Of a stretch of 35,275 nucleotides of DNA, positions 28,097-30,703 are shown one piece after another. Position numbers and translations under genes: made by a program. This stretch comes from a virus: positions 1-35,275 of IMG/VR virus record IMGVR_UViG_3300029988_000016; one strand, given 5' to 3'. The notes under the pieces are model-generated. The model worked only from the letters and a program-made list of their open reading frames with translations. It was not told where the DNA came from and did no database searches. The stretch's first letter is position 1; every line of letters begins with the position of its first letter.

Positions 28097-28176
28097 ACGT
28101 TCTCTTTCAGATAGCTGGTTATGGCGGTCAACTGCCGCTGGATGAGGTTCAAATCAACATCAGGACGCTCACGCAT
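27979..28176 (-). CDS. Small ORF directly after dnaB, overlapping the next gene
   Basis: 65 codons starting from an ATG 5 bases before the DnaB stop is reached (28176), preceded by AAGGAAA. The N-terminal half is a clear helix (DVDLNLIQRQLTAITSYLKE), the C-terminal half is Ser/Pro/Asn-rich and probably disordered, and lies out of frame over the next gene for 118 bases. Either a true overlapping gene or a shorter protein with an overprinted tail. Confidence 0.5.
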   Translation of the reverse strand: MRERPDVDLNLIQRQLTAITSYLKENVWKTNPSAPIPTDGLDSTLSANHSPNLDSPNESPTSQNQ

Positions 28177-29524
28177 AGTAATCGTTTCCTTCATAGTCAA
28201 TTTCCGCTTCAGCCTCAAAGCAAAGTTTGCGCGGATTAAACTCTCCGTCTACATTTCCAGGTGAACCGCCGCCACGGATGAGTGCTAAATTGATGTTTGC
28301 CTTTCGCGTCATCTTCAGCGTTTCTTTGTCCTGATACCGATGCAAGAGGACCATCGCAAAGCAGTCCTGAAGCGGCTTCTTGCTCTCGCTGATGTCGCCC
28401 GGCTGCGGCCGCTTGTCAGCAAACTCTCTCGGCACTTCCCCAAGTTGGAAGAGGTTGAGCAGTGCTGCGTTCTTGTGCTGCTTGATCTTCTTGCGCAACC
28501 GCTCCGAGTTCTCGACGTAGCGCTTTCGGATGTCCCGATCGCCGCCGGCTATCAGTCCGAAGTGGTCCAGGACAAACAGCACGTCGCCATCCTTGCGTGC
28601 CTCCCGGTCGATGGCCCAGCATATATGGTCACAGTCCATGTCACCGTCATAGATCGTAAGCGGCCATTCGCCGATGGCGTAAAGCCCTTGCATCACGAGC
28701 GCTTGCTGTTCTGGAGTCCTGAGTTCTGGCTTGACCACGACAATGTTCGGAAGATATACAACGTGAGGGACCAGGTTCAACTCGACCTCTTCGTGGTCCA
28801 TCTCCAGCGAGAACCAGACGACGCGGGCTGTGCCGTTGATGCAGTTGTACGCCGTTGACAGGACTCCCATACCTGTCTTGCCCACCTTTGGCCGCGCTGC
28901 AACGATGGTGTAGCGCCCCTTCCGGTATCCGCCTCCCATCTTTGCGTCAAGCCATGCGTTGCCAGTCGGGATGCCCCGCGGCGTCTTCTCTTGGTACTCC
29001 CGCACTACCCTATCCATGAGTTCGACGATGTGACTCTGAATCGGAGCTTTGTTCGAGTCCTGTTGAGGTTCGGCAATCTTCTCGATCTGCTTTATCATCC
29101 GGCCAGCAAGTTCAAGCGCTGGCATCTCCTGATCTTGTGCCCGTGACATTGCCTGAGAGGAAAAGACCATCAGTCTCCGCAACAGGCTCTTGTCTTTGAC
29201 GATGCGGATGTACTCTTCGATGACCGGCCGGCGCGGCAAACCCTCAGTCAAACTCGCCAAGTAGGCCACTCCGCCAATCGCCTCAATCTCTTTGTAGCGG
29301 GCCAGCTCATTGGATAGGGTGACAATGTCCACGGCGCGCTGCTCGTTTATCAACTCAGTCATGCGCAGGAAGATGCGCTGGTGCGAGTCGAGCGAGAAAT
29401 CGTCTGCCGTCAGCTTCTCTGCGCATTCGGCGTGGGCAGCATTGTCAAGCAGGATCGCCCCGAGGATGGTCTTCTCTGCGTCGATGTTGGCCGGTAGCCC
29501 GTCTATCTGGAGGTCCGCTTTCAC
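28169..29524 (-). CDS. Replicative DNA helicase, DnaB family
   Basis: 451 residues, GTG start overlapping the stop of the 354-residue ORF (GTGA). DnaB N-terminal domain: IDAEKTILGAILLDNAAHAE, SHQRIFLRMTELINEQRAVD. RecA-like core: GIPTGNAWLDAKMGGGYRKG, Walker A ARPKVGKTG (about 213-221), Walker B-type VLFVLDHFGLIAGG, and a sensor-like QLGEVPREFADKRPQPGDIS stretch. It unwinds the fork for phage DNA replication. The genes at 30700 and 31049 upstream are likely partners. Confidence 0.92.
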   Translation of the reverse strand: MKADLQIDGLPANIDAEKTILGAILLDNAAHAECAEKLTADDFSLDSHQRIFLRMTELINEQRAVDIVTLSNELARYKEIEAIGGVAYLASLTEGLPRRPVIEEYIRIVKDKSLLRRLMVFSSQAMSRAQDQEMPALELAGRMIKQIEKIAEPQQDSNKAPIQSHIVELMDRVVREYQEKTPRGIPTGNAWLDAKMGGGYRKGRYTIVAARPKVGKTGMGVLSTAYNCINGTARVVWFSLEMDHEEVELNLVPHVVYLPNIVVVKPELRTPEQQALVMQGLYAIGEWPLTIYDGDMDCDHICWAIDREARKDGDVLFVLDHFGLIAGGDRDIRKRYVENSERLRKKIKQHKNAALLNLFQLGEVPREFADKRPQPGDISESKKPLQDCFAMVLLHRYQDKETLKMTRKANINLALIRGGGSPGNVDGEFNPRKLCFEAEAEIDYEGNDYYA

Positions 29525-30585
29525 TTACTGCCTTTCGGTGTCGAGGTACGCTTCGATGAAGGCTTTGGCTGTTTCCGATACGATTGCATCGCCGTAACCG
29601 CGCAACTTGACCACTCGGGCGGCAACCCCATGAGCCAGCGGCTGTACTCCGGGTCCAATTGGCCGGCACTTTCCGTCCCTGCCAATCCACCAGTCGCAAT
29701 CTCCCCAATAACCGCGAGTTGCGCCTGTCTCGGCAATTGATCGAGCCGTGATCGGATCGACCCATCCGGGTCCACGCCAGTCTCGGACATTCCCGAACTG
29801 TCCTTCCAATCCCTCGAACTTGGCGTCGATCTCGACGCCAAGTTCGAGAACTTCACTACATGCTCCAGCGATGCCGTATGTTTCGTTCCGTCCTGCATCC
29901 GTCCCGTTGCGTCCATCCTTTCCGTCGAGCAGGACCGGCCACCGTTGGGGGTGCAAGGACTCGGGACAGACGAGAGAATCTCCGCATGATTGAGTGTGAT
30001 GTTGTGCGTCGTGTAATCCCTCCCCGGTTTCCTTAAAGCATCGGTCTGCGTCGGGGTCGGAACACTTGCCAGCGACAACGCTTGAGCCACATCTACCAGT
30101 TGGCTGCAAGCATTCACCCGCTCTATACGCTTCTGCGAGTAGGCTTGGCATTTCTCCGGCGGCAATCTTGAGTTGTTCCAATCGCCTAGATTGGGAGTCG
30201 GCACAGAAGAATAGACGGTATCTTCTGTGCGGCGCTCCGACGCCACAAGCACCCAGTACCGCCGCCGCAAAGGCGTACTCCTCCGCTTCCATGTCTGTTG
30301 AAACAAGGTCGAGCCAGCCGTGTCCAATCGCTCCATCAGCCTGTTCACCAAAGACTGTTCCAGGGCCGCACTCGCGGATGAGATTGAACCATACCGGCCA
30401 GAGATGACGAGGGTCGTCAAACCCCTCTCCTTTGCCCGCAACTGAGAAGGAAGGGCAGGGACAACTTCCGGTCCAGACTGCGCGGTCGTCAGGCCATCCC
30501 GCGAGTCTGAGCGCGTAGCTCCAGACGCCGATTCCTGCAAAGAAATGGCACTGGGTATATCCCATAACGTCGGCTGGTCTGACAT
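29521..30585 (-). CDS. Overprinted 354-residue ORF in another frame of the C5 methyltransferase gene
   Basis: Start ATG at 30585, with AAAGGAG at 30594-30600, spaced 8 bases: a strong SD inside the methyltransferase gene. Its stop overlaps the DnaB GTG (GTGA). N-terminus MSDQPTLWDIPSAISLQESA; then LDTAGSTLFQQTWKRRSTPL, repeats of the type SVPTPNLGDW, SVPTPTQTDA, SVPSPCTPNG, STPSSRDWKD, and near the end EYSRWLMGLPPEWSSCAVTA. I recall very similar products annotated in other phages, as hypothetical or methyltransferase-associated proteins. An end like 'SRWLMG.PPEW' recalls a C5 methyltransferase target-recognition region. Function unknown; about 1.06 kb overlap with the methyltransferase. Confidence 0.6.
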   Translation of the reverse strand: MSDQPTLWDIPSAISLQESASGATRSDSRDGLTTAQSGPEVVPALPSQLRAKERGLTTLVISGRYGSISSASAALEQSLVNRLMERLDTAGSTLFQQTWKRRSTPLRRRYWVLVASERRTEDTVYSSVPTPNLGDWNNSRLPPEKCQAYSQKRIERVNACSQLVDVAQALSLASVPTPTQTDALRKPGRDYTTHNITLNHAEILSSVPSPCTPNGGRSCSTERMDATGRMQDGTKHTASLEHVVKFSNLASRSTPSSRDWKDSSGMSETGVDPDGSIRSRLDQLPRQAQLAVIGEIATGGLAGTESAGQLDPEYSRWLMGLPPEWSSCAVTAMQSYRKQPKPSSKRTSTPKGSK

Positions 30586-30703
30586 CTTTGATGCTCCTTT
30601 CGTCCACGTCGCCCGGCGCAATCAAACCGGCCTTGATGAGTTCACGCAACCATGCAGCCTTCTGGGGATCAAACTCGTTGTAATACGCAGCAGGACTCGT
30701 CAC
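29525..30703 (-). CDS. C5-cytosine DNA methyltransferase
   Basis: 392 residues from the GTG at 30703, which overlaps the stop of the previous gene (GTGA); a GTG at 30745 is less likely. Motif I HFFAGIGVWSYALRLAGW; motif IV GSCPCPSFSVAGKGEGF with the catalytic Cys in PC (usual PCQ is PCP here); motif VI as FGEQ; motif VIII GAPHRRYRLFF; motifs IX-X VKLRGYGDAIVSETAKAFIE. The enzyme methylates cytosine in a specific site, probably to protect phage DNA. The middle (about 190-330) is low-complexity and variable, and is exactly where the other-frame ORF has its repeats. Confidence 0.88.
   Translation of the reverse strand: MTSPAAYYNEFDPQKAAWLRELIKAGLIAPGDVDERSIKDVRPADVMGYTQCHFFAGIGVWSYALRLAGWPDDRAVWTGSCPCPSFSVAGKGEGFDDPRHLWPVWFNLIRECGPGTVFGEQADGAIGHGWLDLVSTDMEAEEYAFAAAVLGACGVGAPHRRYRLFFCADSQSRRLEQLKIAAGEMPSLLAEAYRAGECLQPTGRCGSSVVAGKCSDPDADRCFKETGEGLHDAQHHTQSCGDSLVCPESLHPQRWPVLLDGKDGRNGTDAGRNETYGIAGACSEVLELGVEIDAKFEGLEGQFGNVRDWRGPGWVDPITARSIAETGATRGYWGDCDWWIGRDGKCRPIGPGVQPLAHGVAARVVKLRGYGDAIVSETAKAFIEAYLDTERQ

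Follow-up and report, generated by a model that had tools for sequence, protein, structure and literature searches.

The window spans all 35,275 bases of an IMG/VR virus record. Two long reading frames overlap on its minus strand, and a dnaB-like helicase gene follows them (Table 1). The second gene, beta, lies in frame +1 relative to the first, alpha, and the two overlap over 1,061 bases. An earlier note on this DNA had called alpha a C5 methyltransferase, and profile searches bear this out, with matches to PF00145 (E 1.1e-12, above the cut-off) and PHROG 363 (E 1.6e-71). The alpha family profile matches residues 3-175 of M.HhaI, the part with motifs I-VIII. PADLOC matches alpha to generic methyltransferases; it gave no match for beta. 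The second same-strand frame of 354 codons, the AAAGGAG eight bases 5' of its ATG and the coupling of its stop to dnaB, all proposed in the same note, are present as described, the TGA of beta overlapping the GTG of dnaB as GTGA.

Table 1. Coordinates of genes, motifs and signals in the window.
Feature	Position	Strand	Basis
Alpha: C5 cytosine methyltransferase catalytic subunit, 392 aa, GTG start	29525..30703	-	PF00145, PHROG 363, M.HhaI 3-175 alignment
Beta: +1-frame protein, 354 aa, ATG start; proposed target-recognition and motif IX subunit	29521..30585	-	PHROG 1008, 128 pairs, hhalign
Beta Shine-Dalgarno (SD) AAAGGAG, within alpha codons DERS	30594..30600	-	Sequence; codon bias, 105 loci
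Alpha motif I, FAGIGVWSYAL	30509..30541	-	Sequence
Alpha motif IV with catalytic Cys, GSCPCPSFSVAG	30434..30469	-	PCP instead of the usual PCQ
Alpha motif VI, VFGEQ	30341..30355	-	Sequence
Alpha motif VIII, GVGAPHRRYRLFF	30206..30244	-	Sequence
Alpha motif X, RGYGDAIVSETAKAFI	29555..29602	-	Sequence
Beta N-terminal helix and hairpin (SASAALEQSL... to ...YWVLVASER)	30232..30378	-	Sequence; model pLDDT 82-93
Beta region with three S/V-x-TP..D units	29791..30207	-	Sequence
Beta motif IX, LDPEYSRWLMGLPPEW	29611..29658	-	Aligns with FPEWMMGWPAGWV of one-chain enzymes (hhalign)
dnaB-like helicase, start overlapping the beta stop as GTGA	28169..29524	-	Sequence

Alpha has motifs I, IV, VI, VIII and X. 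In its motif IV (GSCPCPSFS) the catalytic Cys is kept and the Q of the PCQ found in most relatives is replaced by P. Motif X, of the GNxV type, reads RGYGDAIV in the window and GYGNAIV in relatives. No motif IX was found in alpha, where the stretch from VIII to X is a poorly conserved spacer. Alpha does not hold the motif IX and target-recognition domain (TRD) that a single-chain enzyme carries on the same chain; the matching region is in beta.

Conservation of the second reading frame

Beta is a genuine conserved second gene. It matches PHROG 1008 (E 6e-22, residues 11-339); no match was found among Pfam or NCBIfam profiles. Relatives of the beta frame are present in 212 of 50,697 phage records, and 158 stretches encoding relatives turned up in the scanned genomes of bacterial and archaeal species, with both frames intact in 75 of the best 80. 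The arrangement occurs in hundreds of phages and prophages, usually with one protein annotated, and the overlap spans phages, prophages and plasmids of proteobacteria, acidobacteria, planctomycetes, firmicutes, spirochaetes and bacteroidetes. The alpha frame alone is annotated in most phage regions examined; both frames are annotated in K1G and Paenibacillus larvae phage Bloom. Pseudomonas phage Shamal (L174, 958-1644) has the beta frame annotated, as hypothetical, and the overlapping methyltransferase frame unannotated.

Forty-seven viral contigs were picked by the methyltransferase alone, which avoids a bias toward an open beta. Both frames are intact in 28 of these. In nearly all 47 the +1 frame stays open along the methyltransferase, which the +2 and minus frames do not. 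A broken beta beside an intact alpha, the finding named in the earlier note as decisive against beta, is present in one of the 47, and that contig carries an HNH-/endonuclease-like insertion; beta thus withstands this check. The remaining contigs are either cut or have the same indel hitting both frames. Another set, selected by means of a distant alpha, has a median +1 ORF of 230 codons vs 41 for +2. Beta was not seen apart from the alpha gene at any of the loci examined. At one locus (L130) an in-frame stop cuts alpha and beta is intact, and at another (L162) both frames are broken in what looks like a decaying prophage copy.

Synonymous-codon shuffling of the window's alpha left a +1 frame of this length open in 0.085% of 20,000 trials. 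Across the 128 loci with both frames intact, which were selected for openness, stops are absent from the +1 frame vs 418 predicted by synonymous shuffling, and the +2 frame has 1,671 stops vs 1,511 expected. Identity in the +2 frame was dropped as a control for beta conservation, since it is itself raised by the overlap, and fourfold sites upstream of beta were used instead. The third base was compared at fourfold-degenerate alpha codons whose amino acid is identical in both sequences, so that the upstream part of alpha is its own control. For alpha pairs that are 35-50% identical, this base is identical at 27.7% of sites upstream of beta, where codon usage predicts 27.0%, and at 50.7% within the overlap, where 27.1% is expected. 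The values for pairs 50-60% identical are 31.3% upstream and 56.8% within the overlap. The synonymous-site check proposed in the earlier note reveals constraint inside the overlap only, and its impression that both frames are conserved is borne out.

The start of beta falls within the alpha peptide DERSIxDV. This peptide is typically coded GAA AGG AGY ATH RAR GAT GTN, which yields AAAGGAG and an ATG at the right spacing. Its arginine is AGG in 50 of 105 loci (48%) vs 4% of arginines upstream, and its aspartate is GAT in 91 of the 105. An SD core of at least 5 bases lies near 48% of beta starts vs 2-8% of other internal ATGs, a contrast somewhat flattered by the use of the best of several nearby start codons. 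Judged by these codon preferences, the beta start site is evidently selected and built into the codons of alpha.

The role of beta

In beta a conserved N-terminal helix-hairpin precedes the PTP..D repeats, and these are followed by LNPAHSRWLMGLPPEW; besides the repeats, beta carries the signature "NPxxSRWLMGLPxEW". The earlier note had described repeated VPTP..DW units; repeats do exist, but the window's beta has just three units, of the form S/V-x-TP..D. A search with a related beta led to actinophage methyltransferases. One of these, mycobacteriophage Filuzino gp68, is a single chain with motifs I-VIII, LLPTP repeats, FPEWMMGWPAGWV and GNGVCPQQ. Between motifs VIII and X, the one-chain actinophage enzymes align with the beta profile (hhalign 95.7%, E 1e-8, the value for one comparison), and the alignment ends in motif IX. 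An AlphaFold model of a one-chain member matches M.HhaI with Z 22.2 and rmsd 3.5 over 239 residues. The profile alignment and this fold match together suggest that the C-terminal half of beta corresponds to the target-recognition region plus motif IX.

AlphaFold gave a poor model of beta alone (mean pLDDT 61) in which the PTP region looks disordered, and this region is of low confidence in the models of both beta and the one-chain enzyme. The best VIA-align score of the low-confidence beta model is Z 3.2, to unrelated chains, and so tells nothing about its fold. A PDB sequence search with beta gave nothing significant. At L089, on plasmid pAP1 of Paenibacillus polymyxa, the +1 frame holds two motif IX blocks, LNPTWVECLMGFPLDW and LNPAWVECLMGFPLGW, with stops between them, which suggests that part of the overlap has been duplicated.

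The most likely role of beta is that of a second subunit of the methyltransferase, the one that recognises DNA. The earlier note had left its role between regulating the methyltransferase, assisting it and acting independently; assistance is best supported, in that beta holds a region corresponding to the target-recognition part and motif IX, which are absent from alpha. The 1.1-kb stretch very probably encodes a two-polypeptide C5 cytosine DNA methyltransferase in overlapping frames. Alpha would bind AdoMet and catalyse methyl transfer through motifs I-VIII and X. Beta, translated from its own ribosome-binding site inside alpha, would supply the target-recognition region and motif IX. The two chains, both presumably needed, would assemble into one active enzyme, which from phage biology probably marks the phage's own DNA against host restriction. 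Against this reading stand the PCP in place of PCQ in the window's motif IV, the failure of Pfam to recognise beta as part of a methyltransferase, and the poor model of beta alone with its disordered-looking PTP region.

Beta could also be a protein of independent function, a regulator or anti-restriction factor for example, that was overprinted on the methyltransferase gene and has only its DNA in common with it. Such a protein would fit with the lack of a solved relative by sequence and with an N-terminal helix-hairpin to which nothing in the alpha frame of the one-chain enzymes corresponds. However, the PTP and motif IX regions of beta align with the corresponding part of those enzymes, exactly these parts are the ones that alpha lacks, and beta never stands apart from the alpha gene in the loci examined. 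An independent role is improbable on this evidence. Programmed ribosomal frameshifting after motif VIII, which would fuse the catalytic part of alpha to the recognition part of beta with no separate beta made, is less probable again. Actinophages do have these modules in a single frame, and homopolymer G tracts are present in some relatives, but the window's overlap has no long G tract, and the ribosome would have to shift back again before motif X. Beta moreover has its own selected SD and start, and its conserved N-terminal domain lies upstream of any such shift. The least credible reading is that chance or codon bias keeps the +1 frame open and that it is untranslated: composition can yield stop-poor +1 frames (single-gene shuffle P <0.0002 to 0.01), but the +1 frame is open even at 42-50% GC where +2 is not, fourfold sites are constrained inside the overlap only, and the start is selected.

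Frame boundaries between lineages

The boundaries between the frames shift from lineage to lineage. This was the least expected result. Four layouts are present. The PTP repeats, motif IX and motif X all lie in the alpha frame in Filuzino. In Catdawg gp6/gp5, motifs I-VIII are in alpha, and the PTP repeats, IX and X are in the +1 gene. In the window and most relatives, X is in alpha, and the PTP repeats and IX are in +1. At L257 and L260-L262, IX and X are in alpha and the PTP repeats alone are in +1; the same motif IX block is directly before motif X in the alpha frame of L257. Among the 61 relatives with both ends found, 42 are one chain and 15 are split with a +1 offset, as in Catdawg. Offset layouts are mostly +1, and four actinophage loci with insertions or gaps have other offsets. 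The one-chain actinophage genes (L171, L176-L231) keep a +1 ORF of about 100-300 codons, which in 17 of the 42 has the beta hairpin motif followed by PTP repeats.

A further proposal is tentative, and we give it somewhat less than an even chance. The locus may be a stable two-track gene in which catalytic and recognition parts have repeatedly moved between frames, with the +1 track as the swappable recognition module of a large C5-methyltransferase superfamily in phages. If so, one indel could fuse, split or switch off the enzyme.

A poly-G tract in the overlap varies in length among near-identical aquatic phages, with G8 in 7, G9 in 10 and G10 in 1 of 18 contigs (G8 in L051, L052, L055 and L056; G9 in L046, L049, L054 and L058-L061; G10 in L079; scan L238-L255). 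G8 keeps both frames; G9 joins the beta start to the alpha end, breaking both. The variation therefore looks like a phase-variable switch, with assembly error as the alternative. An insertion near alpha motif VI at two loci (L075:3380-3826; L076:3368-3910) holds an endonuclease VII/HNH-like gene (phrog_3322, E ~1e-27) whose reading frame is that of beta; the alpha frame remains open.

Comparison with known systems

Dual-coding genes of more than 1 kb that are conserved this widely are rare. The findings suggest that, among the phage genes usually annotated as "orphan C5 methyltransferases", many encode only half of an enzyme. Recoded alpha clones would destroy beta, and false negative activity could result. 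The one-chain, split and nested forms provide a natural series for testing how long overlaps arise.

A literature search, which covered few subscription papers, found no report of an alpha/beta overlap in phages. PMC11855218 reports an out-of-frame HNH gene concealed in the methylases of cluster F1 phages, which are relatives of the one-chain form; the passages covered do not describe the alpha/beta overlap. The endonuclease insertion at L075 and L076 is much like the ShiLan element of PMC11855218.

The Filuzino gp68 family shares with the window the motif order, the PTP repeats and the motif IX block; it differs in having motifs, PTP, IX and X in one frame, beside which a shorter +1 ORF persists. 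PHROG 1008, which beta matches, is labelled "DNA methyltransferase", though beta has no visible catalytic motif.

A 1995 paper on M.EcoHK31I (YGGCCR) reportedly found its beta encoded in another frame within alpha. By motif layout, the window's alpha resembles its larger subunit in having I-VIII and X, with motif IX on a second polypeptide. M.AquI and M.EcoHK31I are established two-polypeptide C5 methyltransferases (PMC3404938); what is new here is the scale, the placement of the recognition region in beta, and the presence of motifs IX and X and the PTP repeats in either frame according to lineage. In M.EcoHK31I motifs I-VIII and X and the predicted TRD are on the larger subunit, and motif IX is all that the smaller one carries (PMC3404938), whereas the recognition region is placed in beta here; the TRD placement in that enzyme counts against a recognition role for the window's beta. 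M.AquI (CYCGRG) is like the window in having the recognition region and motif IX on the second chain. It differs in the position of motif X, which is on its small subunit and on alpha in the window. Motifs IX and X are both on the smaller chain in Catdawg gp5, and it is the Catdawg gp6/gp5 pair that resembles M.AquI.
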